Assembly: GCF_028290625.1 (NCBI RefSeq)
Contig: NZ_JAQGJM010000001.1
Coordinates: forward strand, 186,001 to 250,000
DNA from: Devosia sp.
GTDB taxonomy: Bacteria > Pseudomonadota > Alphaproteobacteria > Rhizobiales > Devosiaceae
Length of the DNA stretch: 64,000 nt
Direction: 5' to 3'
Below, piece after piece: positions 10,711 through 30,389 of this stretch (its first letter is position 1; each line of letters starts with the position of its first letter). The translations under genes were made by a program, and so were the position numbers. A model generated the notes under the pieces. That model was not told the origin of the DNA. It did no database searches and worked only from the letters and a program-made list of their open reading frames with translations.

Positions 10711-11244
10711 CCTCCGTTAGCTAGGCCTCCAGGCCAGTGCGGAGGCAGTGACCGCTGATACCTGGCTTGCCCGTGACGGTGCGGCTCCAGGGCCATCACT
10801 GCTTCAGTCCTTGAGTCAATCGCTACTTCGAGCTGTCGCACTAGTCCGATTGTTGCAAATTTACCCTTTGGTGGAGAGAAGCGTGGCATGGTGGCGGCTC
10901 TACTTGTATGCTTCAGCGATTGTCAGTAGAAAGCAACGCCGGTATTGTTGGGGGAAATAGATGCCGCCGGGCATCGATTCTGAAGGGTCTGAGGCGCTGC
11001 GAGTTGGCGACTGACATATTCAGGGTGCATGTTCTGGAAGTTCTCGTGATCCCTTGATGTGTGAACTGGAATGACTTCGTGCGTGGGAGCGCGCGAAACC
11101 GGCGAGATGACGGTGTTGAGCGGTAGTGGTCGTGGGTGGAAAAATGTGTTCATTGCCGCTATTGTTCTGATGAAGACGAGACGTGCCCGTCCGCAATTGT
11201 TGCGGTTATTCTGCGTGTTGATTTTGGATAGGCTTGGGGGCTAT
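10711..11244 (+). other. 534-bp intergenic region upstream of the type I secretion genes
   Basis: No convincing gene is seen. The composition is more AT-rich than neighbouring genes. A hairpin GATGCC-gccg-GGCATC lies at 10960-10975, and a perfect 15-bp palindrome (CCGCAA-ttg-TTGCGG) lies at 11191-11205, about 40 bp before the tolC-like start, and could be an operator. The reading frame of the next gene extends upstream to 11071 but lacks a signal peptide there, so this stretch is treated as leader and promoter. Confidence 0.5.
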
Positions 11245-12675: not shown

Positions 12676-12908
12676 GCTACTCCCCGTCGCGATGCGATGA
12701 TGAACAGCAAGCGGCGAACGAGAATGGGCGCAGCGGCGGCGCTGGGCCCAATTCCCGATTGGCGCTCCGGTAGTTTACCGTAACTGTATATTGTCTGCGG
12801 TTGGGGTGCTGCCGGTGATAGTGTTGTGGTGCGTCAAGATCCTAAATTCCGCGTTATTCGCCCACCAGCGTGGGGTTCAGGGCGGCTCGGGGGCATCGTG
12901 TACTTGAG

Positions 12909-15107
12909 ATGAAGTCTGACGACAGTTTGCAGGGCGGCGGCGGGTTGCCGGACGCCCAGCTGGGCATTTCGGGCGCCGAGGCCCCGGAAGTGCCATCCCA
13001 GGGCAGCGATCAAATCCTGGCAGCGATTCAGTATCTCGCCCGCCTCTGGCGCAAACCGGACGCGCGCTCATTCCTGACGGCGGGTCTCCCCCTCGATAAC
13101 GATCGGATGACGGCGGACCTGATCGCACCCGCGATGGCGCGAATTGGTGTGGTCACCACGAGCGCGACACGGTCGCTGCATGGGTTGGCGGACTATGAGA
13201 TGCCCGCCATCATGCAGGGCGCCGATGGCCGTTTTCTGATCTGCCTGGGGCGGGAAGGTCGCAAGGCCTATCGCTGCTATGACGCTTCGCGCGGCGAGGA
13301 ACGGATCGTCGACGCCAAGACGCTTCGCAGCAAGGAGCCAAGAGCCCTGCTGATCCTGACGCCCAATTACGAAATGGTGCAGGAAAATTCCGGCATGCGC
13401 TTTGCCCGTTCGGGGCACTGGCTCTGGTCGGCATTCAGGGGCCACGGGCGCAGCATCGTCTATGTGCTGGCCGCCGCGACATTCATCAATATCTTTGCCA
13501 TCGCGTTCCCGATCTTCACGCTCAACGTCTACGATCGCGTGCTGCCCAATGCGGCGATCTCGACGCTCTGGGTGCTGGCGCTGGGCCTGCTGCTGGTGTT
13601 GATCTTTGACATCGCGCTCAAATTGGCCCGCGGGGCGATCATCGATCATGTCGGCCGCAGCATAGATTTCCGCCTGTCGTCGCTGCTGTTCGATCGCGTG
13701 CTCAATACAACAATGGATGCCAGGCCCGCCTCCACCGGCGCGTTCGTCAACCGCATCGCCCAATATGAAATCCTCCGCGATTTTCTAGCCTCCAGCACGC
13801 TCGTCATGTTCGTCGACCTGCTATTTCTGGGCATTTTCGCTTATGTCATCACCTTGCTGGTGGGATGGCTCGTGCTGTTCCCGCTGAGTGCCGGCGTCAT
13901 TTCCATCGCCTTCACGCTGGGCATCGGTTGGCTGTCTGGCCGCGCAGTATCGTCCGCGCTGAAAGAGTCTTCGGCCCGCAATTCTATTCTGGTCGAGGCC
14001 CTGACGAGTTCGCAATCGGTCAAGGCCTCGCGCGCCGAAGGTCAAATGCTGCGCCGTTGGGAGGCGACTGTGCTTGCCTCGTCCGATACGCAGAACACGA
14101 TCAAATGGCTGCAGTCGATTGCCACCAACATCACAGCGACGCTGACCCAGTTGTCGATGACCGGCATCATCATCGGCGGCACCTTCATGGCCGCCGCCGG
14201 CAATATCACCATGGGCGCCATCGTGGCGGCCATGATGTTGTCGAACCGATTGATCGCGCCGATTTCCATGATTTCGTCGATGTTGCTCCGCACGCGCAGC
14301 ACCATGGAAGCGTATCGCACCATCGATGCCATCATGAAGATGCCCGACGAGCGCAGCGCCAAGGACGGGTTTTCCGCGCGCAGCGTCAATCGGGGCCGCA
14401 TTGTCCTCAACAAGGTGCGCTTCGCCTATCCGGGCAGCAAGAACTACGTGCTCGACGGGATCAGCTTTACCGCAGCAGCAGGCGAGAAAATCGGCATCAT
14501 CGGCCGTATCGGCTCGGGCAAGACGACCCTGGGACGCTTGCTTGTTGGCTTCCACGCGGCCAGCGAAGGCGAAATCCTGATCGATGGCGCCGATATTGCT
14601 CAGTACCACCCGGCCGATTTGCGGCGCGGCGTGGGGCTGGTGCTGCAGGATCCCGAATTGTTCAACGGCAGCGTGCGTGAGAACATCTTGATGGCCGATC
14701 CCAGCGCCAGCGAGCAGCGCATGCTACAGGCCGCGCAACGGGCGGGCGTGGACGATTTCGTCTCGCGGCACCCGCAGGGCTATGACATGCAGGTCGGCGA
14801 GCGCGGCGTCCTGCTCTCTGGAGGACAGCGGCAAGCCGTCGCCCTGGCCCGCACAATGCTGGTCGAACCCAAGATACTGTTCCTCGACGAGCCGTCCAGT
14901 TCCATGGACCTGGCGACCGAACGACAGCTCATCGCCAACCTCGAGGCCAGCCTGACGCCGGACCAGACCGTACTGGTGGCAACCCATCGCTATAGCGTGC
15001 TGTCGCTCGTCAGCCGCCTGATCGTGCTCGACAATGGTCGTATCGTCGCGGACGGTCCGCGCGACGATGTGCTTAATCACCTCAAAACGCGCGGGGGCGT
15101 GTCATGA
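12909..15107 (+). CDS. Type I secretion ABC permease/ATPase (LssB/LapB type)
   Basis: This 732-residue inner-membrane exporter is predicted to power export of the RTX adhesin. An N-terminal C39-peptidase-like domain (about residues 30-150) has no recognisable catalytic Cys-His pair, as in LssB/LapB/HlyB-type proteins that do not cut their substrate. A six-helix membrane domain follows (about residues 165-440). The nucleotide-binding domain has a Walker A GRIGSGKTT at residues 532-540, an ABC signature LSGGQRQ from residue 636 and Walker B LFLDEP with Asp660. The frame also opens with a GTG at 12870; the ATG at 12909 gives a more family-like N-terminus, though its ribosome site is weak. The stop overlaps the adaptor start by 4 bases (ATGA), indicating translational coupling. 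Confidence 0.94.
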   Translation: MKSDDSLQGGGGLPDAQLGISGAEAPEVPSQGSDQILAAIQYLARLWRKPDARSFLTAGLPLDNDRMTADLIAPAMARIGVVTTSATRSLHGLADYEMPAIMQGADGRFLICLGREGRKAYRCYDASRGEERIVDAKTLRSKEPRALLILTPNYEMVQENSGMRFARSGHWLWSAFRGHGRSIVYVLAAATFINIFAIAFPIFTLNVYDRVLPNAAISTLWVLALGLLLVLIFDIALKLARGAIIDHVGRSIDFRLSSLLFDRVLNTTMDARPASTGAFVNRIAQYEILRDFLASSTLVMFVDLLFLGIFAYVITLLVGWLVLFPLSAGVISIAFTLGIGWLSGRAVSSALKESSARNSILVEALTSSQSVKASRAEGQMLRRWEATVLASSDTQNTIKWLQSIATNITATLTQLSMTGIIIGGTFMAAAGNITMGAIVAAMMLSNRLIAPISMISSMLLRTRSTMEAYRTIDAIMKMPDERSAKDGFSARSVNRGRIVLNKVRFAYPGSKNYVLDGISFTAAAGEKIGIIGRIGSGKTTLGRLLVGFHAASEGEILIDGADIAQYHPADLRRGVGLVLQDPELFNGSVRENILMADPSASEQRMLQAAQRAGVDDFVSRHPQGYDMQVGERGVLLSGGQRQAVALARTMLVEPKILFLDEPSSSMDLATERQLIANLEASLTPDQTVLVATHRYSVLSLVSRLIVLDNGRIVADGPRDDVLNHLKTRGGVS

Positions 15108-16432
15108 ACGCTCCATTTCGCACCGAGCGGGGGCAGGGACATAGTGTCCTCAGCACGCAGCCGCCGCCGACCGGCTGGCTCTACGTTGTCGTCATTATCG
15201 GCGTTTTCTTCGTCGTCGCGCTTGCCTGGGCCTCATGGGCAGAGATCGATGAGATCAGCCGGGCGGAGGGGCGCGTTATCCCATCGGGGAAGTCGCAGAT
15301 CATCCAAAGTGCTGAAGCCGGCGTCGTCACCGATATCCTGGTCAGGTCCGGCGAACGCGTGAGCAAGGGCCAGCAACTGATTCAGCTCGACGACACCAAT
15401 ACGGCGTCGAGCGCGGGCGAGGTGCAGGCCCGCGTATTGGCGCTCCTCGCGCAAACGACTCGCCTGGCCGTGGAAAGCCAGGCGCAGGATGCTGGCGCAT
15501 TCATTTGTCCCGCAGAAATTGTTTCATCGGCCCCCCAGATTTGTGACAGCGAAATCCAGTTGCTGACGACCCGCGCGGCCAGTCTGGCGCAGGGCAAGGA
15601 TGTGCTGATCCAGCGCGTCGAGCAACGCAATCGCGAGCTGGGCGAGGTCAATGCCAATCAGAACCGGCTCACCGGCAACCTGGCTCTGGCGCAGGAGCGG
15701 CTTAACCTGATGGCGCCACTTGCCGAGCGCGGGCTGGTCGCCCAAACCACTTATCTGAGCATGCAGAGCGAAGTCAGCGATCTGACTGGCCAGATTGCCG
15801 GCGCCAACGAATCCAAGGCGCGCCTCGAAGCCGCCCTCAAGGAAGCCCAACTCCAGGTTGACCAGGTCACGCTGCAGTTCCGTCAGGATGCGCTGGCGGA
15901 ACTGACGGTCCGCCGTGCGGAACTCGCCAGTGCGCAGCAGCAATTGCGTGGTGCCGAGGACCGCGTGATGCGCACCGATATCCGCTCCCCAGTGGATGGC
16001 GTGGTCAATAGCATAGAGGTCAACACCATCGGTGGCGTCGTTGCTGCGGGCACGCGCCTGCTCGATATCGTGCCGATTTCCGACACGCTGCTGGTTGAGG
16101 CGCATCTCAAGCCATCCGACGTCGCCTTCATCCTTCCGGGGCAGCAAGCGCGCATCAAACTGACCGCCTATGACTATTCAATTTTTGGCGGGTTGACGGG
16201 CGAAGTGACCAATGTGTCGGCCGACAGCATTGTCGATCCCAACACCCGTGAGACCTACTACCTCGTCCAGATCCGGGCCGACAAGGCCGTGCTCGAATAT
16301 CGCGGGCGCGAATTGCCGGTGCTGCCCGGCATGGTCACCAGTGTCGATATTCTGACCGGCAAGCGCACTATTCTGCAGTACCTGCTGAAGCCTATCAACA
16401 AGACCCGGCAGGAGGCGCTCAGTGAGCGATAG
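15104..16432 (+). CDS. HlyD-family type I secretion periplasmic adaptor
   Basis: This 442-residue membrane-fusion protein should bridge the ABC exporter and the TolC-like channel. One transmembrane helix lies at about residues 25-47 after a short cytoplasmic tail. A lipoyl/barrel-sandwich half follows (EGRVIPSGKSQIIQSAEAG), then a long coiled-coil hairpin at about residues 130-275, then the second lipoyl half with RSPVDGVVNSI. The C-terminal RTX-exporter adaptor region ends in LLKPINKTRQEALSER, the usual end of this family. The gene overlaps the ABC gene by 4 bases and the next gene by 11 bases, so it sits in the middle of a tightly packed operon. Confidence 0.94.
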   Translation: MNAPFRTERGQGHSVLSTQPPPTGWLYVVVIIGVFFVVALAWASWAEIDEISRAEGRVIPSGKSQIIQSAEAGVVTDILVRSGERVSKGQQLIQLDDTNTASSAGEVQARVLALLAQTTRLAVESQAQDAGAFICPAEIVSSAPQICDSEIQLLTTRAASLAQGKDVLIQRVEQRNRELGEVNANQNRLTGNLALAQERLNLMAPLAERGLVAQTTYLSMQSEVSDLTGQIAGANESKARLEAALKEAQLQVDQVTLQFRQDALAELTVRRAELASAQQQLRGAEDRVMRTDIRSPVDGVVNSIEVNTIGGVVAAGTRLLDIVPISDTLLVEAHLKPSDVAFILPGQQARIKLTAYDYSIFGGLTGEVTNVSADSIVDPNTRETYYLVQIRADKAVLEYRGRELPVLPGMVTSVDILTGKRTILQYLLKPINKTRQEALSER

Positions 16433-17060
16433 TGCCAGGCTGGTCGCCGAGGACCAAGACGCTACAGCCGGCAGCAGCAGACTTGCTCAATTGACGCGCC
16501 CCGAATTTCGCACGCTAACCACGCCCAGCGGCCGAAAGGGCGTTCGACTGGAGCAGGTGTTCTGGAACGCCTTGAGTATGCTGAGCGCGGGGGCGGGCCA
16601 AAAGCGCTCCCGCTTCGTCGCCAAGATCCTGGAAGAGGCAAACGAGCAAGACATCAATGCCACCGGCGCGATCCGCAGCGCCACCGTGAATCTGTTGATG
16701 GAAGAGCTGCAGCGCCTGCTGCCGCTGGCCAATGCCAGCACAATGATCAGCCTGTTGCAGGCCGGTCCCGCGCCGTCCTTTGCGCTCGACAGGCGCAAGA
16801 GGCTGGTACAGGCCAATGCCGAATTTCTGCGCTATCTGCGCTCGGTCGGTGGCGCCGTCAGCGGCGCAACGCCGGTCGATGCCGCGCAACTGTCATTGGA
16901 GAGACCATTGGAAACGCTGTTCGATGAACTGGTTTCAGGGGGGACGACCGAGTGCGGCATTTCCATTCGCTTCGGCAATCGCGATCGGCGCACGACTGCT
17001 CGATTGCTGCTGGTCCCGCCCGCGCCCGCAAGCGTGATCATTGGCTACGTGCTGGCGTGA
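16422..17060 (+). CDS. Unrecognised protein in the type I secretion operon (possible PAS-like fold)
   Basis: I do not recognise a family for this 212-residue protein. It has no signal peptide or membrane segment, so it is probably cytoplasmic. The N-terminal half is helical and charged. From about residue 115, a stretch beginning PSFALDRRKRLVQANAEFL and ending in hydrophobic beta-strand-like segments resembles the N- and C-terminal strands of PAS sensor domains; this is a pattern judgement only. The GTG start at 16422 is supported by a strong Shine-Dalgarno sequence (CAGGAGG, 6 bases upstream) inside the adaptor gene. The stop overlaps the next gene's GTG start (GTGA). Its position between the adaptor and a lipoprotein gene suggests a role in controlling or assembling the secretion system. 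Confidence 0.8.
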   Translation: MSDSARLVAEDQDATAGSSRLAQLTRPEFRTLTTPSGRKGVRLEQVFWNALSMLSAGAGQKRSRFVAKILEEANEQDINATGAIRSATVNLLMEELQRLLPLANASTMISLLQAGPAPSFALDRRKRLVQANAEFLRYLRSVGGAVSGATPVDAAQLSLERPLETLFDELVSGGTTECGISIRFGNRDRRTTARLLLVPPAPASVIIGYVLA

Positions 17061-18316: not shown

Positions 18317-18336
18317 TCCGATTGCCGGGGGCCTCC

Positions 18337-21300
18337 ATGATCGAACGTTCCGACTCAAACTCTGATTTCGTTGTCGATACGACGTTGGATACCAATTCGC
18401 TGCCGACCGCTGAAATCCTGGTGGCTCAAGCGGATACGGGAGCGATCACGGCGACCGATGCGACGCCGCCGGACGCCGCGGCCACGCAGAACCAGGCAAG
18501 CCTGGTGGTCGAAATTGAGAATGGCTCGATACTGCATCTGCCCGAGGGCGCAAGTATTGATGCGCCCCGGATGAATGGCGCCAATCTCGAATTCGTCCAG
18601 CCCGATGGCTCCGTCATCGTGGTGCCGAACGGCGCCATCGAAGGCCTGACCATCGTGCTGGGCAGCGTGGAAATCCCGCCCCTCACCGTGGCCGCATTGT
18701 TTGCTGCAAGTGATATCCAGACCGCGGCTGGCCCCGCCGGAAATGGTCCGCCGAGCTCCGGCGGCAATTTCGACGTGCTGCCCGCTGGCGATATCGGCAG
18801 CGCGTTCACCTATGGCGCTTTGCTCGACGGCACCGACCTGCCGACCACCGAAACCACCGATGAAGAAAGCTTCGACAACAACCTGGCGCCGCGGTTCGAG
18901 CTGGCGATCAGCGAAGCCCGCCTCTCCGAAGAGGGCCTGGCCGGCGGCAATGCGGATCTGGATGGCGACGCCGATACCACTAACAGTTCGGTCTATTCGG
19001 GCAACCTCAACGCATCCGACCCCAATGGCGATCCGCTGGCATTCAGCTTTGGCGAACCCACGACGGCTGTCAGCTCGCAGGGCGTGGCACTGACCTGGAC
19101 CGGCGTTGGTACCTCGGAGCTCTCCGGTTGGGCTGGTGAGACCCTCGTCGTCCAGGCGGTTGTATCGGGCAATTCCGGTGCATACACGGTCACGCTTTTC
19201 CAGCCCGTCGATCACGCCAACGGCGGCGGTGAAAACGAGTTCCGCTTTGACCTGCCCATCACGGCCACCGATGGCCGCGGCGGTAGCGCTTCGACAGCCA
19301 TTCGCATCATCGTGGAGGACGACAGCCCGACCGTCGACGTGACGGCCAAGACCGGCGAAGGCGCTCCCCACCTGGTGATTTCGCTGGATGAGGCCGTCGG
19401 TAATGGTTCGGGCGAAGGCAACCCTTCGGGTGAAGGTAATCCATCGGGTGAAGGCGGCGGCAACACCGGCGACGATGCCCCGGGCGTGCTTGGCCGGGTG
19501 ACGACGTCGTTCGAAGGCGGCCTCGCGGCGCTGTTCACCGTCTCCGGCGGATTTGGTGCCGATGGTGCCGGTTCCAGCACCGCCGTGTTCAGCTTCGCCG
19601 GCATTCCGGCAGAAGGCCTGGCCACGAATCTGTCGGCTACGCATGGCGGATTGATTACGCTGTTCCTCGAAGATGGTGTGGTCTTCGGCCGCGATGCCGC
19701 GGGTGACGATGTTTTCAAGATCGAAATCGTTGGTGCCCCAGGCGCCGAACAGTTGCAGACCACGCTCATCGAAGCGATCGCGCATGGCGGCGGCGAGGGC
19801 AACCAGTTCGATCAGACAGCCTTGCTGCAACTGCTGGGGGCGGGCGCCGCTCAACTGAAGTACGAAGTCACGCGCACGGACTTCGACGGCGACACCACCA
19901 CGCATTCGGCCACGATCGACCTGGTCACGAAAGACTCGTCGGTCATTTCCTTCGAAGATGACAACCCGAGCCTCAGCGCCGTGAAACCGCAGACAGTGGC
20001 GGAACTGACAGCGGACGGTGCATCGAACGCCTTTGTGCCGACCACCATCTCCAACGTATCCCTCAACGTGACCTGGGGCTCCGATGGCCCCCACGCCCAG
20101 AATCTGGCCTTCACCACGGCAAACGGCGATAGCGGCCTGACGTCGAACGGGCAGGCCATCAATTATTCGATCAGCGGCACCCTGCTCACCGCAGCGGCTG
20201 GTGGCCGCGAAGTCTTCACCGTGCAGTTGAACGCCGATGGCTCGTATACCTTTGCCCTCAAGGACAATATCGACCACACGCCCGGCAGCAATAACCAGGA
20301 ACTGACGTTTGGCTTCCAGGCGACCGATGGGGATGGCGATTCCGTCGCGGGCAGCTTCAAGGTCAATGTGACGGACACGGTCCCCACGATCGACACCACC
20401 GAGACCGCGACTGCTTCTGAGTACACCCTGGACGCGGTGCAGCCCGGCAACCTCAACATCGACTGGAACGCCGACGACAATAATAGCGGCACTATCGCCA
20501 ATCGTAGCGTCGCCTTCGCCGATCTCGTGGCGCCGGCCGACCTGACCTCGGACGGCAAGGCCGTCATCTATAGCTATAATTCCGACCATACAGTGCTGAC
20601 GGCAAAAGCCGGCACTGAAACCATCTTCACCGTCTCGCTCAGCGACGCCGGCACGGGCAGCTATGCCTTCCACCTCCACGGCAATATCGACCATGTCGTC
20701 GGCACCGATACCAGGGAACTTTCGTTCGGCTTCCGGGCGACCGACGCAGATGGCGATTCCGTTATCGGCAGCTTCAAGGTCAATGTGACGGACACTGTCC
20801 CCACCATTGGCGCGACCGAGACCGAGACCGTGTCCGAGCAAAACCTGCCGTTTTTCTTTGACGAATCCCACCCAGACGAGAGCGACGCGCTGGTGCAACC
20901 CGGCAAGCTCAACATCGACTGGAATGCCGATGACAATAATGGCAACCCTGCCAATCGCAGCGTCGCCTTTGCGGCCGTCGCAGGGCCCGTCGACCTGACC
21001 TCGGACGGTAAGGCTGTCGTCTATAGCTACAATGCCCAACACACGGTGCTGACCGCAACGGCGGGCGGCCAAATCGTGTTCACCGTGTCGCTGAGCGATA
21101 CCGGGACCGGCACCTACACCTTCCGCCTCTATGGCAATATCGACCATGCCGTCGGCACTGATACCAAGCCGCTGAACTTCGGCTTCGTTGCCACCGACTC
21201 CGATGGCGATCCAGCCTCGTCCAGCTTTACGGTCAACCTGCTCGACGATCAGTTGAGCCTGGATTCGGTTGGCGTGCGCTATGTCGAAGAAGAGGCACTG

Positions 21301-24300
21301 CCGCACGGCAACAATGACGCGAGCCCGTTTGGCGTGGAAGTGGCGGGCGCAGCGGCCAATTTCTTCAGCGGTGTTCTCGGCATCAGCAGCCAGATTGGCG
21401 CCTCCCTCAACATCTCCTGGGGCAATGACAACTTTAACAGCGCCGTCAATGGCGGCTACAACGGCACCCAGGTGATGGGCGACCGCTCGGTCGCCTTCGC
21501 TTCGGGCAATGGCGCGGCACGCGTTCTGACGGTGCCGGAAGTTGCCGGCCTGATCAGCGCAACGGGCGGCAACAATACCCCGGCCTCGCTCACGTCCAAC
21601 GGCCAGCCGCTGGTCTATACACTGTCCGCCAATGGCACCGTGCTCACCGCTTCCGCCGGTGGCCATGATGTGTTTAGCGTCACACTGTCAGATCAGTCCA
21701 ACGGCTCCTACAACTTCAAGCTGCTGGGCACGCTCGACCACCCCGTGGCCGCTAGCGGCGCGGATAATGAAGACGTCCTGTCGCTGCGCTTCAACTTCAC
21801 CGCTCGTGATGGCGATGGCGACGCGGGCACCGGCAACTTCGTCGTTCGCGTCATCGACGACAGCCCCGAAGTCGGCTCAGTTGCCCGCCTGGACGTCAAC
21901 GAGCTGACGCAAGACGGCTTCTCGAACGCCTTCATTCCGCAGACGCCCGCCGCCGAATCGCTGAGCATCGATTGGGGTGCCGATGGCGCCAAGACCGGTG
22001 GTCTGACGTTCACTACCCATAGCGGTGCCGTAAACGGCCTGACCTCCAATGGCACTCAGATTGCCTACACGGTCACCGGCAATGTGCTGACCGCTATGGC
22101 CGGCACGCGCGAAGTCTTCAACGTCACTCTCAATAGCGACGGTACATACTCCTTCGTCCTCAAGGACAATATCGACCACACCCCCGGCAGCAACGACAAG
22201 CTCCTGAGCTTCGGCTTCCAGGCAACCGACGCCGATAATGACACGGCAACGGGCTCGTTCTCGGTCAATATCAAGGACAGCGTTCCGGTCTTGCTGGCTG
22301 GCGTGGCCGATGTCGGCTCGCTTTCCGAAAGCCCGCTGCCAACTGTCAGCTTCACCACCGGCAGCCTCAAGGTCGATCTCAATGCCGATGATGCCAATAC
22401 CCATGTCGAAATTGCCAAGGACGGCAATGGCAACTATATCCTGCCGCAGGGCCTGAAATCGGATGGCGTTGCACTGGACTATGAGGTGCGCGCCACAAAT
22501 GGTGGCGATCAGGAGATCGTCGCTTTCAAGCATGGCGAGAGCGTCAACCAGCCCGTGTTCATCGTGGCAGTCGTACGTCCGGGCGACTTTGCGGCGACGC
22601 TGTTCCAGAACTTGGATCACGCGCCTGGCAGCAACACGCTGGCGATCAACCTGACGGCTCGCGTCTATGACGGCGACGGCGACTACGTGGATCGCGCCTT
22701 CACCGTCAATGTGGCCGATACCGTGCCGGAACTGGTCGGGCAAGCTGACACCGGCACTCTGCAGGAAAGCAGCCTGCCTCAGATCAGCGTCATCACCGGC
22801 AGCCTGCATGTCGATCTCAACGCCGACGATGCCAAGAACCACGTCGAAATCGCCAAGGACGTTAACGGCAACTACATCCTGCCGCAGGGGCTGACCTCGG
22901 ATGGGGTGGCGCTCGATTATGTCGTGCGCACCAGCAATGGCGTCGATCAGGAGATCGTCGCCTTCAAGCACGGCCAGAGCGTCGACCAGCCGGTGTTCAT
23001 CGTGGCTGTGGTCCATCCCGGCAACTTCGTGGCGACGCTGTTCCAGAACCTGGATCATACGCCGGGCAGCGATAACCTGGCGATCAACCTGACCGCGCGC
23101 GTCTATGACGGCGACGGCGACTATGTGGACCGCGCTTTCACCGTCAACGTGGCCGATACGGTACCGGAACTGGTCGGGCAGCCCGACGTTGGCATCCTGG
23201 TGGAATCCAGCCTGCCGAACGTGAGCTCGACCTTCGGCAGCCTGCATGTGGACCTCAACGCCGACGATGCCAAGAACCATGTCGAAATCGCCAAGGACAG
23301 CAACGGCAACTACATCCTGCCGCAGGGGCTGACCTCTGACGGCGTGGCGCTCGATTATGTCGTGCGCACCACCAATGGCGTCGATCAGGAGATCGTCGCC
23401 TTCAAGCACGGCCAGAGCGCCGACCAGCCGGTGTTCATCGTGGCTGTCGTCCATCCCGGCAGCTTCGCCGCGACGCTGTTCCAGAACCTGGATCACGCCC
23501 CCGGCAGCGATACGCTGGCGATCAACCTGACCGCGCGCGTCTATGACGGCGACGGTGATTACGTGGACCGTCCGTTCGCTATCAACGTGGCGGACACAGT
23601 GCCTGAACTGGTTGGGCAGTCGGATGTTGGAACTTTGGTGGAAAGCGGCCTGCCAACTGTCAGCTTCACCTCCGGTAGCCTCAAGGTCGACCTCAATGCC
23701 GATGACAGGAATACCCACGTCGAAATCGCCAAGGACGGCAATGGCAATTACATCCTGCCGCAGGGACTGACCTCCGATGGCGTGACGCTCGACTACGTCG
23801 TGCGCACCACGAACGGTGTCGACCAGGAAGTCGTGGCCTTCAAGCACGGCGAGACCGTCGACCAGCCGGTATTCATCGTGGCCGTCGTCCATCCCGGCAG
23901 CTTCGTGGCAACGCTGTTCCAGAACTTGGATCACGCGCCTGGCAGCAACACGCTGGCGATCAATCTGACGGCACGCGTCTATGACGGTGATGGCGACTAT
24001 GTCGATCGTCCGTTCGTCGTCAATGTGACCGATGACGTGCCCACCCTGAGCGCGCCGGTTGGTGACTTCAACCTGCTGACCAATGGCGATTTCGCCGATG
24101 GTACCTGGACGGGTGCGGGCTGGGGCGGTGGCTTTGCGACCGAAGCGGTCGGCTGGAAGATCACTGGAACCGGGGGCAATGTGCAGCTGGAATTTGTCCA
24201 GGATGGCTATTTGAACATGCACGCCCCCTCGGGTGGCCGCATGGTGGATCTGGGATCTTCGCCGGGCAATACCGCCATCTCGCAGTCCCTTTCGGGCCTG

Positions 24301-27300
24301 ACGGTGGGCCAAGCCTATACCTTGACCTTCGCGATGGGCTCGCCTGATCCTGCCTCCTCGAAGCTTGAAGTGTATTGGAACGGCCAGCTTATTCAGAATT
24401 CGTCTGTGTTGGTGACCAACACGATGACGTCCATCATCATCGACGGCCTGCTGCCCGATGCGCAGGGCAATGGCGTGCTGACCTTCAAGGAAGTGGGCAC
24501 GGCCGACGCCACCGGCACCTATCTGGCCGATATCGGCATCGCGCCGACCGGCGCTGCCGACCTGCCGCTGATCAGCGGTGTAATTGACGAAGACGGTACC
24601 GCGACCATCAACCTCGGCGCTCACTTCAGCTTTGGCGCAGACGGCGCCGGCACGGTTTCCGTCAACCCTGCGACCGTCGTCATCACCACGCCGACAGGCA
24701 CCATCCTTGGCCAGCCCACGATCACGGTCGACCCCGTGACGGGTCAGCTACACGTCAATCCGGGTTGGGGCTTCGGTGGCCTCAGCCAGGGTGAAATTGC
24801 CACCATCACCATTCCCTACACGGTCACCGACCACGACGGCGACAGCAAAACGGGCCTCTATCAACTGACCATTAATGGCCAGAACGATCAGGTCTCGACG
24901 TCCGTGGGCTTCCCCGATGCCGGCACGATCACCGAATATGCCGAGGGTACGCCGAACGCTGGTTCCTCGGATCCTCGCACTGAATTCGACGCTCCCGCGG
25001 GCCATGCCGGCTATAATGGCGGTGGTTTCTGGATCTATGACGACCAGGGCGACACCCACAGCGTGACCGTGACTCCGGGCGCCAATGCGGGCTATCTCGG
25101 TACCCTCGTGGCCAATGTCAGCGAAGAAACTGCCAATGACGGCAACGGTTTTGTGACCTGGCGCTATAGCGTCACCGATGCGGCCCTGAACCCGCTGCAG
25201 GCGGGTGAGACGAAGATCGAGACCTTCACCGTTCGCGTCAGCGACGGGCATGGCACCTTTGCCGATCGGGTCATCACCGTGACGCTCGTAGGCACCAATG
25301 ATGCCCCAGTCATCAGCGTCGGCGATGTCGATCATGTCGTCCTGAACGAGACCGATGCCGGGCTTCAGGCCAGTGGTACGCTCAACGTGGTCGATGTCGA
25401 CGTGAAGGACGTGGTGACCGCAACCGTGACCGGCGCTTCGGCGACCGGACTCGGCGCACACGTCACCGACCAGGACCTGAAGGATTTCTTCAGCATCGGT
25501 TCGGGCGCGGTCATCGATGGCACCCACACGACCGGCAACATCGCCTGGGCCTTCAACTCTGGCAGCGAAGCGTTCAACTTCCTCGCTGCCGGTCAGGAAG
25601 CCGTAATCAAGTACACCATCCAGGTGTCCGACGGGCATGGTGGCACTGACAGCCAGGACATCGAGATCAAGCTGATCGGCACCAATGACCGGCCAGTGGT
25701 TGATCTGAACGGGCTGGATGCCGGCAACAATGGCACCGCGACCGCGGTGGAGCAGTTCCCGCAATATATTCTGAATGCCACCGCCATCACTGCCGCCACG
25801 ATTTCGGATGTCGACTCGTCGCAAATGAGTTCGATGACGGTGAAATTCGTCGGTCGGCCGGATGGTGCGGACGAAGTGCTGTCGCTGAACCCAGCGGCTC
25901 AGACGGCCGCTGCAAATCTTGTGGTGACCTACAACGCCGTATCGGGTGTCCTGACGATCACGGGCGCCGCACCGGTCGGCACCTACCAGACGATCCTGCA
26001 GGGCGTGAGCTACATCAACAACAGCGATAATCCGACCGGGACCGGCCATAGCGTCGAAGTCATCGTCAACGATGGCCTTGACAACAGCACAGCGCAGATC
26101 GTCGACATCAAGGTCGTTCCGCTTAACGACGCGCCGGTTCTCGCCGGCACGCTGCAGGCAACTGTCGTTGAAGGCGGCATGGTCGTTCTGACGGCTGCCG
26201 AACTGGGCTACAGCGATCCAGACGATATCGCTTCCGGGGTCGTGTTCAAGATCTCGGCCCTCAATGGTGGCGAAATCCGCAACGGTGGCGCGCTGGCGAC
26301 CTCCTTTGCAGCAGACGAACTGGCCCATGGCCTTATCACCTTCGTGCACAACGGGTCCGAGGGCAGCGCCGGCTTCAACGTGGCGGTGGAAGACGGCAAC
26401 GAGGATGGCTCCACCAACCCCACCCCGGCGTCCTTTGTTGTCCATGTCACCCCGGTCAACGACGCGCCGGTCGCCGTTGCCGACAGTTATACTGTGGACG
26501 AAGATCAGGTGTTGGCCGGCGGCGTTCTTGTAAACGACACGGATGTCGATGGGCCGGCTTTGACCGCCGCCCTCGTCTCTGGTCCTGCGCATGGCTCCCT
26601 GATGTTTAACCCTGATGGCACCTTCACCTACACGCCTTCGGCCAACTACAATGGTCCCGACAGCTTCACCTATCAGGCGACCGACGGAGCGATTTCTACC
26701 GCTGTAACGACCGTCAATCTGACGGTCACCCCAGTCAACGACGCGCCCACGGCGCCTGTCGATACCAATGGCGCCGTCAATGAAGTGGCAGAAAACGCCG
26801 CTGCGGGTACGGTGGTGGGTCTGACGGCCCATTCGACCGACGTCGACGATGCGACCGTCACCTACAGCCTCACCAATGACGCTAACGGCCGGTTCGCAAT
26901 CGATCAGAACACCGGTGTTGTCACCGTTAAGGCTGGCGCCGTGCTCGACTATGAGACGACGACCCAGCATGTGATCACTGTCCAGGCGTCCGATGGCCAC
27001 GGGGGTGTCACCTCTTCCGACTTCGCCATCGATGTGAAGAACGTGCAGGAAGGCCCGGTGGGCATCGCAAATTCGAGTGCATTCTACGCATTCTCGAACA
27101 ACAATGCCGCCGGCCCGACTTCCATCACGCTCGACATGGCGACCTTGTTCGTCGGTGTGGCCGCCGGTACGACCTACTCGTTCGAAAAGGTGCGAGTGGG
27201 GGAAACCGACGCCTCTAACGGCGACCTTCAACTCAACGGCAGATGGAGCTGGCTGCACCAGACGCTGAACGTGATCAGCGGTAACCCGGATCCGAACGAT

Positions 27301-28695
27301 GCGGACGCTTATATCCTCAAAGTCATTGCGACAGCGCCTGACGGAACGACTGCGTTCACATATGTCGCCCTGACAGCCCTGGCGGACAATGCCACCTCGA
27401 CAGCTGTTGGCAACGAGCGTGATAACGAGATGATCCTGCCCAGCGGGACGGACGCGGGCGCTGATCTGCATGGACAATCTCGCGTCGACGTGCTGGTCGG
27501 CAATGATGGCAATAACACGCTTTATGGCGAGCAAAACCAGGACGCTCTATATGGTGGTGCTGGCGGTGACTATCTGAATGGCGGCTCGCAAAGCGACTTC
27601 GTCGCCGGCGGTGCTGGCAACGACACGATCTATGGCGAAGACGGTAACGACATAATCCTCGGTGAAGACGGCGACGATGCGATCGATTCCGGAGCGGGCA
27701 ATGACATCGTCATGGGCGGGGCCGGCAATGACACCATCTACGGGTCAGACGGCAATGACGTCCTCTATGGCAACGATGGCAATGATCGACTCTATGTCAA
27801 TTCGGGCGATGATAAGATTTACGGCGGAACCGGCGACGATCTGCTCACCGATGACAGCGGCAACGATACGTATTACTTTGGCATGAAGGACGGGCAGGAC
27901 GTCATTGACGAAGGCAGCGGCACTGACAGGATCGTCATTACCGCGGCCGGCGCAAAACTCGACGCGCTCAATGCCTACGACACAGTTGCAGGCAAGAACC
28001 TGGGTAACCTGGTTATCGAGTTCAATGGCCAGTCCGTCAGGGTTGAGAACCATTTCGTTGGCACCAATGACCGCGTCGAGCTGATCAACTTTGATGGGGC
28101 AACCTACAAAGGGTACCACCTTGGGTCTGGCGATTACGCTGTCGGCCGCGACGACGACAGCCCGAGCGTCCGTACGCCACTGAGCACCAATGGCAACGAC
28201 TTCCTCGTCGGAGAGATTGGCGTCAACAACACGTTCTCTGGTGGCGATGGCAATGATCTGATGTTTGGCGCCGACAAGGTCGACACCCTGTCGGGCGGCC
28301 AAGGCAATGACTTGATCATCGGCGGCGGCGGCAACGACATCCTGACCGGCAATGATGGCGACGATATCCTGTGGGGCGGCCTCGGCAACGACACGCTGAC
28401 CGGCGGCACTGGTAACGACACCTTCGTGTTCAGCGAAGCCGGCGCCGCCAATGCCGACACCATCAAGGATTATGTCTTTGGACAGGATGTGATCGATCTG
28501 TCCGACTTGCTGAGCGGCGTTGCCGACGGCCAGAAGGCCAGCCATGTTCAGATCGATGCGGCCGCCAACACGATCTCGGTGGATAGGGGGACCGGCCAGG
28601 GCTGGGAGCTTGTCGCGACGATCGAGCCAGTTAGCGTCGGGCACGTTGACATCAAGATTGGTGACGATCTGCCCCATATCCAGCCGATCATCTAA
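18337..28695 (+). CDS. Giant RTX adhesin with retention module and LapG-type cleavage site
   Basis: This 3452-residue protein is predicted to be exported by the type I system encoded just upstream and held at the cell surface. Residues 1-128 form a retention-type region with phrases such as NGSILHLPEGASI and EGLTIVLGSVEIPP. TAAG follows at residues 129-132. Next come DUF5801/T1SS-143-type repeats (about residues 540-1315), four near-identical 146-residue repeats (to about 1900) and a jelly-roll/carbohydrate-binding-like insert (about 1909-2073). VCBS and cadherin-like domains lead to about residue 2910. RTX nonapeptides (GGxGxDxxx) lie at about 3050-3190 and 3284-3370, and a C-terminal secretion signal closes the protein. 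The ATG at 18337 is preferred over an upstream TTG because GGGGG precedes it at good spacing. The layout matches LapA/BapA-class biofilm adhesins. Confidence 0.95.
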   Translation: MIERSDSNSDFVVDTTLDTNSLPTAEILVAQADTGAITATDATPPDAAATQNQASLVVEIENGSILHLPEGASIDAPRMNGANLEFVQPDGSVIVVPNGAIEGLTIVLGSVEIPPLTVAALFAASDIQTAAGPAGNGPPSSGGNFDVLPAGDIGSAFTYGALLDGTDLPTTETTDEESFDNNLAPRFELAISEARLSEEGLAGGNADLDGDADTTNSSVYSGNLNASDPNGDPLAFSFGEPTTAVSSQGVALTWTGVGTSELSGWAGETLVVQAVVSGNSGAYTVTLFQPVDHANGGGENEFRFDLPITATDGRGGSASTAIRIIVEDDSPTVDVTAKTGEGAPHLVISLDEAVGNGSGEGNPSGEGNPSGEGGGNTGDDAPGVLGRVTTSFEGGLAALFTVSGGFGADGAGSSTAVFSFAGIPAEGLATNLSATHGGLITLFLEDGVVFGRDAAGDDVFKIEIVGAPGAEQLQTTLIEAIAHGGGEGNQFDQTALLQLLGAGAAQLKYEVTRTDFDGDTTTHSATIDLVTKDSSVISFEDDNPSLSAVKPQTVAELTADGASNAFVPTTISNVSLNVTWGSDGPHAQNLAFTTANGDSGLTSNGQAINYSISGTLLTAAAGGREVFTVQLNADGSYTFALKDNIDHTPGSNNQELTFGFQATDGDGDSVAGSFKVNVTDTVPTIDTTETATASEYTLDAVQPGNLNIDWNADDNNSGTIANRSVAFADLVAPADLTSDGKAVIYSYNSDHTVLTAKAGTETIFTVSLSDAGTGSYAFHLHGNIDHVVGTDTRELSFGFRATDADGDSVIGSFKVNVTDTVPTIGATETETVSEQNLPFFFDESHPDESDALVQPGKLNIDWNADDNNGNPANRSVAFAAVAGPVDLTSDGKAVVYSYNAQHTVLTATAGGQIVFTVSLSDTGTGTYTFRLYGNIDHAVGTDTKPLNFGFVATDSDGDPASSSFTVNLLDDQLSLDSVGVRYVEEEALPHGNNDASPFGVEVAGAAANFFSGVLGISSQIGASLNISWGNDNFNSAVNGGYNGTQVMGDRSVAFASGNGAARVLTVPEVAGLISATGGNNTPASLTSNGQPLVYTLSANGTVLTASAGGHDVFSVTLSDQSNGSYNFKLLGTLDHPVAASGADNEDVLSLRFNFTARDGDGDAGTGNFVVRVIDDSPEVGSVARLDVNELTQDGFSNAFIPQTPAAESLSIDWGADGAKTGGLTFTTHSGAVNGLTSNGTQIAYTVTGNVLTAMAGTREVFNVTLNSDGTYSFVLKDNIDHTPGSNDKLLSFGFQATDADNDTATGSFSVNIKDSVPVLLAGVADVGSLSESPLPTVSFTTGSLKVDLNADDANTHVEIAKDGNGNYILPQGLKSDGVALDYEVRATNGGDQEIVAFKHGESVNQPVFIVAVVRPGDFAATLFQNLDHAPGSNTLAINLTARVYDGDGDYVDRAFTVNVADTVPELVGQADTGTLQESSLPQISVITGSLHVDLNADDAKNHVEIAKDVNGNYILPQGLTSDGVALDYVVRTSNGVDQEIVAFKHGQSVDQPVFIVAVVHPGNFVATLFQNLDHTPGSDNLAINLTARVYDGDGDYVDRAFTVNVADTVPELVGQPDVGILVESSLPNVSSTFGSLHVDLNADDAKNHVEIAKDSNGNYILPQGLTSDGVALDYVVRTTNGVDQEIVAFKHGQSADQPVFIVAVVHPGSFAATLFQNLDHAPGSDTLAINLTARVYDGDGDYVDRPFAINVADTVPELVGQSDVGTLVESGLPTVSFTSGSLKVDLNADDRNTHVEIAKDGNGNYILPQGLTSDGVTLDYVVRTTNGVDQEVVAFKHGETVDQPVFIVAVVHPGSFVATLFQNLDHAPGSNTLAINLTARVYDGDGDYVDRPFVVNVTDDVPTLSAPVGDFNLLTNGDFADGTWTGAGWGGGFATEAVGWKITGTGGNVQLEFVQDGYLNMHAPSGGRMVDLGSSPGNTAISQSLSGLTVGQAYTLTFAMGSPDPASSKLEVYWNGQLIQNSSVLVTNTMTSIIIDGLLPDAQGNGVLTFKEVGTADATGTYLADIGIAPTGAADLPLISGVIDEDGTATINLGAHFSFGADGAGTVSVNPATVVITTPTGTILGQPTITVDPVTGQLHVNPGWGFGGLSQGEIATITIPYTVTDHDGDSKTGLYQLTINGQNDQVSTSVGFPDAGTITEYAEGTPNAGSSDPRTEFDAPAGHAGYNGGGFWIYDDQGDTHSVTVTPGANAGYLGTLVANVSEETANDGNGFVTWRYSVTDAALNPLQAGETKIETFTVRVSDGHGTFADRVITVTLVGTNDAPVISVGDVDHVVLNETDAGLQASGTLNVVDVDVKDVVTATVTGASATGLGAHVTDQDLKDFFSIGSGAVIDGTHTTGNIAWAFNSGSEAFNFLAAGQEAVIKYTIQVSDGHGGTDSQDIEIKLIGTNDRPVVDLNGLDAGNNGTATAVEQFPQYILNATAITAATISDVDSSQMSSMTVKFVGRPDGADEVLSLNPAAQTAAANLVVTYNAVSGVLTITGAAPVGTYQTILQGVSYINNSDNPTGTGHSVEVIVNDGLDNSTAQIVDIKVVPLNDAPVLAGTLQATVVEGGMVVLTAAELGYSDPDDIASGVVFKISALNGGEIRNGGALATSFAADELAHGLITFVHNGSEGSAGFNVAVEDGNEDGSTNPTPASFVVHVTPVNDAPVAVADSYTVDEDQVLAGGVLVNDTDVDGPALTAALVSGPAHGSLMFNPDGTFTYTPSANYNGPDSFTYQATDGAISTAVTTVNLTVTPVNDAPTAPVDTNGAVNEVAENAAAGTVVGLTAHSTDVDDATVTYSLTNDANGRFAIDQNTGVVTVKAGAVLDYETTTQHVITVQASDGHGGVTSSDFAIDVKNVQEGPVGIANSSAFYAFSNNNAAGPTSITLDMATLFVGVAAGTTYSFEKVRVGETDASNGDLQLNGRWSWLHQTLNVISGNPDPNDADAYILKVIATAPDGTTAFTYVALTALADNATSTAVGNERDNEMILPSGTDAGADLHGQSRVDVLVGNDGNNTLYGEQNQDALYGGAGGDYLNGGSQSDFVAGGAGNDTIYGEDGNDIILGEDGDDAIDSGAGNDIVMGGAGNDTIYGSDGNDVLYGNDGNDRLYVNSGDDKIYGGTGDDLLTDDSGNDTYYFGMKDGQDVIDEGSGTDRIVITAAGAKLDALNAYDTVAGKNLGNLVIEFNGQSVRVENHFVGTNDRVELINFDGATYKGYHLGSGDYAVGRDDDSPSVRTPLSTNGNDFLVGEIGVNNTFSGGDGNDLMFGADKVDTLSGGQGNDLIIGGGGNDILTGNDGDDILWGGLGNDTLTGGTGNDTFVFSEAGAANADTIKDYVFGQDVIDLSDLLSGVADGQKASHVQIDAAANTISVDRGTGQGWELVATIEPVSVGHVDIKIGDDLPHIQPII
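18721..18732 (+). other. Predicted LapG-type cleavage site (TAAG, residues 129-132)
   Basis: These codons encode Thr-Ala-Ala-Gly at residues 129-132 of the adhesin, at the end of the N-terminal region and before a flexible Gly/Pro/Ser-rich linker. In Pseudomonas fluorescens LapA, the protease LapG cuts between the two alanines of a TAAG motif at a similar depth (residues 108-109). The LapG-like protease is encoded next to this gene. Confidence 0.75.
22282..24036 (+). repeat. Four tandem in-frame repeats of about 438 bp in the adhesin gene
   Basis: Repeat boundaries, at the VP(E/V)L phrase, fall at 22282, 22723, 23161, 23599 and 24037: periods of 441, 438, 438 and 438 bp, that is 147 or 146 residues. 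Each unit contains LKVDLNADD or LHVDLNADD, GNYILPQGL, VAFKHG, ATLFQNLDHAPGS and RVYDGDGDYVDR, which fits the T1SS-143 repeat class. Units two and three are almost identical at DNA level, so recombination could vary copy number without shifting the frame. Confidence 0.9.
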
Positions 28696-28715: not shown

Positions 28716-28746
28716 ACGGCCCGCTCACCAGCGGGCCGTTTCTATT
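28716..28746 (+). terminator. Rho-independent terminator between the convergent adhesin and protease genes
   Basis: A perfect 10-bp stem, ACGGCCCGCT / AGCGGGCCGT, with a 4-nt loop is followed by TTCTATT. It lies between the adhesin stop and the stop of the convergent protease gene and can serve the plus strand; the stem could act for both. Confidence 0.85.
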
Positions 28747-29599
28747 AGAGACCCTCGCCGGGCGACACTGCGGAAAGATCCTTGGGCATCGATGCCATTG
28801 CGGTATTGGCGCCCGTAAAGCCGTGGATGTAATTGCGGCCTGCCGAGAAACTCATGATGGGCTGGTATTGCCCATAGGCCGTGTCCAGGTTCAGCCGGCT
28901 GGTGACATTGTCGAGCACGTAGCTGTCGGCGCCCATATGGGCGACCAGAACCGCATGGAATAATTGCCGGCGCGTGTCCTGCAACACGACGAGCTGCAAC
29001 TGTTCCGCCGGCACCCCAAGGCTGCGCAGGAGCCAGAATTTGGCTATCGCGAAGTCCTCGCAATCACCGGCCCCTTTGCGGGCCATTTCGGATGGCGTGG
29101 CCCAATAGTCGCCGACGCCCCAAATCGCGGTGTCCTCGCGATACTTCATCGTCGAATTGACCGACCGATTGACCAGGTTGAGCATCGCCACCTCGGACAA
29201 TCCATTGGCCCGATCGGCGACGCCGCGCAGCGTGTTGGCAAATCGTGTATTGCACCCCGCAAGGCCGCTGCTCGCACAGTCGGGCCCGAACATCGCCCTG
29301 AAGTCTGCCTGGGTCACCTGCTGCCACTTTGCTGCTGCCGGAAGGCGGGCGGCAGAAATCGCGACCGAGCCGAAAACCCCCATATTGACCGTTGGCGCCG
29401 CAACCGGCGCAGGCGTCATGAAGACGCTGGCAGGCTGCAACGCTCTGGCCACGGAAACCCGCGTTTTGGTTATCGTAGGCGATGTGTTGATCAGTTGGGC
29501 GCGGCCCATATCAGGATTGTAGCCGAAGCTTGAGGCAACGGGGACAATAGAGAAAAGTCCCATGGCTGCGGTAAAAACAAATATTGCTTTTCTAAGCAT
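28745..29599 (-). CDS. LapG-like periplasmic transglutaminase-like cysteine protease (BTLCP family)
   Basis: This 284-residue exported protein has a signal peptide at about residues 1-25 and a transglutaminase-like catalytic core. The expected triad is Cys180 in GDCEDFA, His215 in LFHAVLV and Asp230 in YVLDN. Asp179 and Glu181 flank the cysteine, as do the calcium ligands of LapG. In LapG systems this enzyme releases the surface adhesin by cutting its N-terminal TAAG site; that site is present in the adjacent adhesin, and the two genes converge on a shared terminator. The start is fixed by a strong Shine-Dalgarno sequence (AGGAGG, 5 bases upstream). Calcium binding and inhibition by a LapD-type receptor are known for the family; no LapD is encoded in this window. 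Confidence 0.92.
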   Translation of the reverse strand: MLRKAIFVFTAAMGLFSIVPVASSFGYNPDMGRAQLINTSPTITKTRVSVARALQPASVFMTPAPVAAPTVNMGVFGSVAISAARLPAAAKWQQVTQADFRAMFGPDCASSGLAGCNTRFANTLRGVADRANGLSEVAMLNLVNRSVNSTMKYREDTAIWGVGDYWATPSEMARKGAGDCEDFAIAKFWLLRSLGVPAEQLQLVVLQDTRRQLFHAVLVAHMGADSYVLDNVTSRLNLDTAYGQYQPIMSFSAGRNYIHGFTGANTAMASMPKDLSAVSPGEGL

Positions 29600-29685: not shown

Positions 29686-29701
29686 CGATAAAATTTTATC
29701 G
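29686..29701 (+). promoter_or_regulatory. Perfect 16-bp AT-rich palindrome in a divergent promoter region
   Basis: CGATAAAATTTTATCG lies in the 220-bp region between the protease gene and the divergent GGDEF-like gene. A further half-copy, CGATAAAATT, is at 29741-29750, and another lies at 57342-57351. The pattern suggests a regulator that controls both divergent genes. The surrounding stretch, 29640-29760, is unusually AT-rich for this window. Confidence 0.5.
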
Positions 29702-29819
29702 TTTGTTTGCGCCGGCGCTTTGCCCCGTTTTCTGTATGATCGATAAAATTGCACCTAGCCTCATCAGTGATGGTTGAGACCTCGATGGCACGTTGTGGCC
29801 ACAACACTAGGGGCATATA

Positions 29820-30389
29820 ATGGGCACATTCGCGGATTGGCTGAGGGGCTTGATGGGTCGGGGAAATGAGCGCGTTGACAGACGCCGCAAAGAGCGTCCA
29901 CCGGCCATCGCCATTCAGGCGAGCGATCTGGATCCGGTCAGCGGTGCGCTGCGTAGCGATCGTTTCATGGTCATGGTGGCCGCGGAGCAGGCGCAGCGCC
30001 CTGGGGCTCTGCTATTGATCGACTTGGCGGACCGCGCGGAGTTTGTAGCGGCCGGCAATCCCGATGCGCCCCAGGAGACCTTGATTCTCATGGCTCAGGC
30101 CATCCGCCAGGCCGTTCGTTTCGATGATCTAGTGGGCCATGTCGAAGGCTACCGCTTCGCGGTGCTGTTGCGCGGCGCCCCCGAGGATTTGGCGGACGCG
30201 ATCGCCCAGCGCATTTGCGACTCCGTGGATGACACGGTGTTCCTCACGCACGACGGCATCTCGCAGCTTGACGTCGCTGTGGGCGGGGCCGTGTTCGAGC
30301 CAGGAGAAGGGCGAGACTTATACACGGATGCCCAGGCCGCCCTCGATTCCGTGCGCCGCCTGGATAGCCACCGTATCTCGATAAACTGA
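29820..30389 (+). CDS. Small soluble degenerate GGDEF-domain protein with conserved I-site
   Basis: This 189-residue protein has no signal peptide or membrane segment and consists of little more than one GGDEF-like domain. The domain begins at DPVSGALRSDRF (the position of DxLTGLxNRRxF). The active-site loop GG(D/E)EF is replaced by EGYRF at residues 109-113, so diguanylate cyclase activity is not expected. The inhibitory-site motif RxxD is kept as R100-F-D-D103, exactly five residues before the loop, the standard spacing. Proteins with this pattern (for example PopA or PelD) bind c-di-GMP as receptors. AGGGG before the ATG serves as ribosome site. It is divergent from the LapG-like gene and could link c-di-GMP to the adhesin system; the partner is unknown. 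Confidence 0.8.
   Translation: MGTFADWLRGLMGRGNERVDRRRKERPPAIAIQASDLDPVSGALRSDRFMVMVAAEQAQRPGALLLIDLADRAEFVAAGNPDAPQETLILMAQAIRQAVRFDDLVGHVEGYRFAVLLRGAPEDLADAIAQRICDSVDDTVFLTHDGISQLDVAVGGAVFEPGEGRDLYTDAQAALDSVRRLDSHRISIN

Follow-up and report, generated by a model that had tools for sequence, protein, structure and literature searches.

The degenerate GGDEF or GGDEF-like domains of PelD, PopA, SgmT and YdaK are said to read c-di-GMP via the I-site, and each of these proteins differs from the one described here in being fused to other domains and in serving other outputs. PelD is entered under I-site structures, and R359, D362 and R390 are named as the I-site residues supplied by one PleD GGDEF domain (PMC7288161). 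The R390 equivalent of DgcR lies too far off to bind c-di-GMP (PMC8041772), and thus the third arginine is not required everywhere. The typical place of the RxxD motif is five residues ahead of the GGDEF motif, and there it is found in CdgA (Bd3125) of Bdellovibrio bacteriovorus, a protein with a degenerate GGDEF (GVNEF) and no cyclase activity that binds c-di-GMP with an apparent Kd of ~2 uM (PMC3271064). LapD of Pseudomonas fluorescens is the catalytically dead c-di-GMP receptor of the LapA/LapG system. It is a transmembrane protein with a LapD_MoxY_N periplasmic domain and a HAMP-GGDEF-EAL arrangement, and its EAL domain retains c-di-GMP binding (PMC13090378, PMC4359373). The DvhD/DvhG system of Desulfovibrio vulgaris combines type I adhesins and a BTLCP protease with a receptor that is not a LapD, and the same 2026 paper describes the control of large adhesins outside the Gammaproteobacteria as much less known (PMC13090378). 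Among the matches listed in a search of open PMC papers, we found none that describes a GGDEF receptor encoded beside lapG in an alphaproteobacterium.

Here we describe such a candidate in a 64,000-nucleotide stretch, the window, of a Devosia genome (4.96 Mb in 60 contigs, contamination estimate 4.5%). The gene at 29820..30389 (+ strand) is predicted to encode a catalytically dead GGDEF protein that would bind c-di-GMP at its I-site and serve the adjoining lap-like adhesin locus; judged from sequence, we give this reading a probability of about one half. The locus includes plus-strand genes for a TolC-like outer membrane channel (11071..12648), a type I secretion ATPase of the LssB/LapB type (12870..15107; TIGR03375, 755.7 bits, cut-off 693.1), an HlyD-family adaptor of the LapC type (15104..16432; TIGR01843, 394.6 bits, cut-off 208.65) and a ribbon-helix-helix (RHH) protein (16422..17060; PF13467, with a PAS-like match below cut-off). 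All four lie upstream of the gene for a LapA-like giant adhesin of 3457 residues (18322..28695, +), which has T1SS-143 repeats and a type I C-terminal target domain and, scanned in pieces, matched T1SS-143 at 367.9 bits (cut-off 66.05) and T1SS_VCA0849 at 25.4 bits (cut-off 17.6). After its N-terminal retention-like module stands a TAAG motif (18721..18732, +), a candidate di-Ala cleavage site for LapG by analogy with the site in LapA; the counterpart is AAAG in the two adhesin relatives examined. Over the first 1193 residues of the adhesin, NCBIfam retention models gave no match. Of the 75 genus genomes, 15 have the RHH gene, among them all 14 that have a lapG of the window's type, and the gene also stands beside LapC in many of the annotated LapG loci elsewhere in the Hyphomicrobiales. 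The type I adhesin operon is immediately preceded by the region 59-10710, which holds a 2962-residue ORF followed by the gene for a ShlB/FhaC-type transporter (9076-10710). The two resemble a two-partner secretion pair, although the first 1000 residues of the ORF had no match among the NCBIfam models.

Convergent with the adhesin gene lies a gene for a cysteine protease of the BTLCP class (28745..29599, -; PF06035, 69.7 bits), and head to head with the latter, across 220 bp, lies the GGDEF gene. By its sequence the protease is LapG-like, short of the cut-off of the NCBIfam equivalog CystProtLapG (105.9 bits vs 320). The residues of its Cys-His-Asp triad are aligned in all 14 LapG-like proteins of the genus, and its N-terminal hydrophobic segment was found by hydropathy; we take LapG to be periplasmic. 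The genome contains a second BTLCP gene (L031, G000:C33:124785-125258), which is closer to the Pfam model, at 214.7 bits vs 70.8 bits for the lapG-like gene in the same search.

The 189-aa product of 29820..30389, with an ATG start, matched the GGDEF model PF00990 over residues 56-179 at 34.8 bits (cut-off 23.8), and GGDEF models were its sole Pfam matches. The earlier note on this DNA had claimed that the catalytic loop was replaced, that an I-site motif was kept five residues before it and that the protein was soluble; the first two claims are confirmed, and the sequence fits the third. The domain match and direct reading place E109-G-Y-R-F113 at the catalytic loop position (30144..30158, +) instead of GGDEF, with three of the five positions changed and the second glycine and the phenylalanine kept. 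The primary I-site motif R100-F-D-D103 (30117..30128, +) is separated from this loop by the spacer LVGHV, of exactly five residues. No stretch of the protein exceeded the membrane-helix threshold in a simple hydropathy test, so that the label soluble fits. When aligned to 11 canonical GGDEF domains encoded elsewhere in its genome, the protein matched R100, D103 and R131 (30210..30212, +), the third I-site residue, to PleD R359, D362 and R390, and differed from PleD at K332, N335 and D344; the metal-binding D327 of PleD is still kept, as D68. The loss of GG(D/E)EF and of GTP-contact residues speaks against an active diguanylate cyclase, and the features of a CdgA-type receptor are found: a GGDEF domain, a lost catalytic motif and RxxD at the five-residue spacing. 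In the N-terminal segment (residues 1-22; 29820..29885, +), W7 is shared by 16 and R21-R22 by all 18 members of the family described below, and a moderate hydrophobic moment is seen in some rows of the alignment only. The first ~20 residues could possibly form a peripheral membrane or docking helix. An AlphaFold2 model built from a two-sequence alignment was unusable (pLDDT 43) and was discarded.

To place this protein in its genus, 75 genomes were searched with a profile; the same-genus relative Devosia sp. RYN_494 was not entered a second time in the counts. The search returned 18 copies of the GGDEF family, the window's included, in 16 genomes (E < 1e-58; next match 8e-34). No member has GG(D/E)EF. 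Within the new loop G110 is found in 14, Y111 and R112 each in 16 and F113 in all 18. The equivalents of PleD K332, N335, the first glycine of GGEEF, E370 and E371 are replaced throughout, and that of D344 is replaced in 14 members, gapped in 2 and kept in 2. The equivalent of D327 is kept in 18 of 18, and hence not all catalytic residues are gone. The alignment has 25 invariant columns out of 189, and R100, D103 and R131 are among them; by a crude yardstick, three named positions would all be invariant ~0.2% of the time at this proportion. Nine chosen pairs gave dN/dS values of 0.04-0.33. A convincing membrane helix is lacking in all 18, although three touch the threshold (1.62 vs 1.6) at one position inside the domain. 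Searched against the PDB, the family profile matched 32 distinct sequences (best 6e-11), and the five alignments inspected were with GGDEF proteins. A search of the order, run to E 1e-22 with eight candidates scored in each genome, yielded only two weaker matches outside the genus, both to active-looking two-helix cyclases. The copy in G028 (L068, 9641-10153) stops early with its triad intact, and may be truncated or failing. Elsewhere in the window's genome, L030 (G000:C19:74727-75167) has a degenerate loop, GQASF, and RxxD in a 235-residue frame with no membrane helix by hydropathy.

The earlier note took the pattern of lost loop and kept RxxD as the mark of a c-di-GMP receptor. As a motif alone RxxD is weak, since it is common among the GGDEF domains of this genome: 14 of the 30 others have it, and the full triad occurs in 6 of the 11 canonical ones. 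The argument therefore rests on conservation, and what stands of the claim is the triad that is invariant in a family whose catalytic loop is lost. Such retention in 18 of 18 members would not be expected of a decaying domain. By analogy with CdgA, we infer with fair confidence that the window protein would bind c-di-GMP.

The divergent arrangement with the LapG-like gene, noted earlier for this locus, is real and recurs in the genus. Window-type lapG was found in 14 of the 75 genomes (E < 1e-60; next match 3.6e-21), and in 11 of these the GGDEF gene is its divergent neighbour (G000, G017, G030, G022, G028, G002, G068, G073, G082, G084 and G079), an order maintained at 36-72% protein identity. 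Eleven genomes have both genes, five the GGDEF gene only, three lapG only and 56 neither; Fisher's test gives p 2.6e-7 with genomes treated as independent and, as the genomes are related, this value overstates the association. The three genomes with lapG and no soluble GGDEF gene are G066, G067 and G027. Membrane relatives with a degenerate loop and a kept RxxD occur in G065, G070 and G067 (L119, L120 and L121), and in G067, which has lapG and lacks the soluble form, the membrane relative lies on another contig than lapG. Of the genomes with the GGDEF gene only, G081 and G078 are fragmented, and the gene lies on contigs of 9 and 6 kb with no lapG detected. The other three, G008, G010 and G004 (30-70 contigs), lack window-type lapG and the RHH gene too. 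Their orphan copies are under constraint (dN/dS 0.12-0.16), so the GGDEF protein has a role outside Lap, be it original or acquired. Second copies are found in G030, ~5 kb from lapG, and in G002, on another contig.

These orphan and second copies are the evidence for a different explanation, in which another process is served by the protein, as c-di-GMP receptor or regulator, and adjacency to lapG reflects no more than old linkage or shared transcription. We consider this rather unlikely, since the divergent order is kept in 11 of 14 lapG genomes across wide protein divergence, a promoter element is found at some, though not all, of the loci where one of the two genes stands without the other, and a related GGDEF family occurs at LapG loci elsewhere. 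The earlier note had proposed a small receptor as a link between c-di-GMP and adhesion. That proposal stands in so far as the protein appears to be a dead cyclase with a kept I-site, its link with lapG is conserved and no LapD domain was found in the genome; as a strict link it fails, in G008, G010 and G004, where the gene occurs without lapG, and in G066, G067 and G027, where the reverse holds.

The promoter element is GATAAAATT, which is repeated in the lapG-GGDEF intergenic regions of the genus (180-223 bp), with copies ~46-52 bp apart in several loci. In the window the element-bearing divergent promoter is 29600-29819; it contains a perfect palindrome, CGATAAAATTTTATCG, comprising two GATAAAATT copies (29686..29701, no strand), and a third copy of CGATAAAATT (29741..29750, +). 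A promoter/terminator scan gave one promoter-like site vs a shuffle mean of 0.6. Allowing up to one mismatch, the element occurs at 28 sites in the 2,343 bp of the 11 promoters vs 10 sites in the 246,656 bp of the rest of the loci, and none of 150 permuted motifs reached 28 (mean 1.7, largest 27). Exact copies number 15, in nine of the 11 promoters (none in G030 or G079), compared with a mean of 0.1 and a largest count of 3 for 150 permuted motifs. Exact copies also occur where only one of the two genes is found, upstream of lapG in L139 and upstream of the GGDEF gene in L141 and L142; there is none in L138 and L140, where lapG stands alone, nor at the orphan copies of G008, G010 and G004. A copy at 57343, upstream of an ABC solute-binding gene, was taken as chance. 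At 55 other LapG loci, 31 have a site at up to one mismatch near the lapG start. The 41 sites there compare with a permuted mean of 10.4 and a maximum of 37, and the six exact sites are equalled by 3 of 150 permuted motifs, so the signal outside the genus is weaker and partly due to base composition. That the RHH protein binds the element is a guess; in G081 and G078 the element is present without a detected RHH gene.

The promoter element also bears on the possibility that lapG is controlled chiefly by transcription, and that the GGDEF protein only tunes an active cyclase, through a mixed I-site dimer, or the local c-di-GMP level. HvyA of Caulobacter provides a model: it is a periplasmic BTLCP protein of the same class as the LapG-like neighbour, with LapG as a distant relative, and it differs in acting on capsulation, under cell-cycle transcription and turnover control; controls on both its transcription and its translation confine it to G1 (PMC4241560). 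The GATAAAATT repeats upstream of lapG, strong in the genus and weaker in the order, point the same way, and the nearest relatives of the window protein in its own genome are, by the tree described below, two-helix cyclases. This explanation seems unlikely to us, because it accounts neither for an I-site kept in two families that have lost catalysis nor for the place of the gene at an exporter operon. HvyA-like transcriptional control of lapG nevertheless fits the promoter element, and it may hold alongside a receptor at the same locus.

The earlier note saw no LapD in the window, and this is borne out among the ORFs scanned. The LapD_MoxY_N model (PF16448), which serves as a search for LapD homologues, found no match in the whole genome and none in any of the 75 genus genomes. 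As a positive control, the same model was run over 299 genomes from across the phylum and matched 83 of them; all matches better than 1e-20 lay outside the class of the window's genome. Fifteen of the 299, from its own order or class, had weak matches (best 3.4e-10), which we take to be MoxY-type proteins. Candidates were also sought by layout among the 30 other GGDEF proteins of the genome, judged by hydropathy only on ORFs from stretches with 1.5 kb flanks, the start of L020 being cut. L020, L027, L029 and L030, with degenerate loops, were rejected because the N-terminus has six helices or contains no membrane helix. The order helix, long stretch, helix, GGDEF is found in L006, L009 and L017, but these were rejected for intact GGDEF loops; an EAL motif was matched in L006 only.

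At some LapG loci of other Hyphomicrobiales the c-di-GMP gene is a membrane relative, which widens the earlier reading. A LapG profile matched 45 of 397 genomes of the order at E up to 1e-30, and the stretches around lapG in 42 non-genus genomes, which are unequal in length and in several cases cut by contig ends, were scanned with GGDEF and EAL profiles built from the window's genome. A two-helix GGDEF protein of 253-270 residues (353 for the frame in G209) is found at lapG in six of them, G334, G318, G154, G401, G258 and G209. The catalytic loop is degenerate in five (GETEF twice, SDHSF, ASNEL and GASMF) and reads GGEEF in G401, and the triad is kept in all six. The GGDEF and EAL scan detected no LapD-like gene at the 42 loci; in G379 a GGDEF-EAL protein is encoded ~15 kb from lapG. 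In G129, a genome of the same family, a multi-helix EAL protein with intact-looking motifs (L187, 9191-10636) is encoded divergently from lapG, so that another c-di-GMP gene occupies that slot. In a midpoint-rooted tree of 44 GGDEF domains, the six two-helix proteins group in a clade of their own (98/91), as do the 18 genus proteins (100/99), and both clades fall inside a larger group of two-helix cyclases (99/98) that includes L016 and L021 of the window's own genome. The joints between the two clades are weak (83/49), and one or two recruitments are therefore both possible.

A profile of the six proteins scored above 260 bits in 12 of the 397 genomes; the next match, a cyclase that looks active, scored 226 bits. 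Every one of the 12 belongs to the 45 LapG genomes, but six had been chosen for their place at lapG and had supplied the profile, so a fair count takes only the new members, of which six of six are in LapG genomes. The hypergeometric value for these is 7e-7, which overstates the association since genomes are related: all six are of one family (f23) and kinship is uncorrected. Across the 12 members the triad is complete in every one and the loop is degenerate in 11. The gene lies on the lapG contig within ~15 kb in seven of the 12 (the six above and G280), which amounts to linkage in seven of the 42 non-genus LapG genomes. In G142, G178, G299 and G376 it lies on another contig, and the lapG contig is short or ends near by; in G459 it is unlinked to lapG. 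Among the rows listed, eight of the 12 genomes have no LapD_MoxY_N match (G142, G178, G209, G258, G280, G299, G318 and G334).

Some plasmids carry a similar arrangement. A plasmid collection held 64 records with a LapG-like match at 1e-10, and 13 Hyphomicrobiales loci were chosen by hand, one of them, in Aminobacter MDW-2, already known to have a GGDEF gene near by. A two-helix GGDEF gene lies within 12 kb in eight of the 13, and all eight have RxxD and the third arginine as read from the motif. Six are degenerate: GPASF in Ensifer adhaerens NER9, E. canadensis T173, Sinorhizobium chiapasense S24 and S. sojae, ATNEL in Rhizobium sp. CCGE532 and SPSEF in Bosea sp. NBC_00550. The loops of Aminobacter MDW-2 and NyZ550 are intact GGEEF and, with G401, they indicate that some two-helix relatives may be active cyclases. 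None was found within 12 kb of the LapG loci of Rhizobium CB3060, SL42, Q54, Peteryoungia and Martelella.

These surveys bear on whether another transmembrane receptor in the genome, of the DvhD (HD-GYP) or some other kind, controls LapG and leaves the window protein an accessory. DvhD demonstrates that unrelated architectures can replace LapD (PMC13090378), and L006, L009 and L017 have a suggestive layout, though with intact loops. We nevertheless think such a receptor improbable, because the GGDEF and EAL scan of the 42 other loci turned up no LapD-like gene there and the c-di-GMP gene that recurs at LapG loci is the two-helix GGDEF. The window protein might instead be a relic, a cyclase in decay in which RxxD persists by accident or because the fold requires it. 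This would suit the frequency of RxxD among the other GGDEF domains of the genome and the early end of the G028 copy, but is very unlikely given dN/dS well below 1 in all nine pairs, a triad invariant in 18 of 18 genus and 12 of 12 two-helix proteins, and a new loop, GYRF, that is itself largely conserved.

We therefore return to a receptor that serves the adhesin locus. In such a mechanism c-di-GMP would probably be bound as an intercalated dimer that bridges two protomers or a protomer and a partner. Since the window protein appears to be cytoplasmic and LapG periplasmic, the two could not be in direct contact, and the likeliest target, rather than LapG itself, would be either the exporter (LapB/LapC), on its cytoplasmic or inner-membrane side, or the RHH protein encoded in the same operon; of this step we are less sure. 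In the two-helix relatives the helices are joined by no more than a short loop. The shared geometry of both families would be a domain that reads c-di-GMP on, or close to, the cytoplasmic surface of the inner membrane, with its gene beside exporter genes. High c-di-GMP would then promote secretion or retention of the adhesin, and transcriptional control of lapG and the receptor via the GATAAAATT sites would set the balance. As a more tentative generalisation, Lap-type adhesin systems of Hyphomicrobiales might depend for their readout on compact I-site receptors that were recruited, once or perhaps twice, out of a common pool of two-helix cyclases, with a two-helix membrane form at rhizobial and related loci and a soluble form in Devosia, export or retention being gated from the cytoplasm, unlike the inside-out capture of LapG by LapD.

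The proposed receptor differs from each described system. It has neither LapD_MoxY_N nor the transmembrane HAMP-GGDEF-EAL layout, only a GGDEF domain in 189 aa, and on both grounds it is not a LapD. DvhD has a dCache periplasmic domain, PAS and HD-GYP, and is not a GGDEF protein (PMC13090378); the window protein has no dCache and no HD-GYP match in Pfam. CdgA serves prey invasion at the cell pole, and the passages of PMC3271064 that describe it mention no lapG or type I adhesin locus. The window protein is CdgA-like at the level of the domain and may do LapD's job at the level of the system. It offers a concrete receptor candidate for alphaproteobacterial adhesin systems, with rhizobial relatives, and the GATAAAATT promoter element and the constant RHH companion are further handles. 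If action from the cytoplasm proves true, the c-di-GMP control of giant adhesins would have been solved in at least three ways round the same kind of protease.
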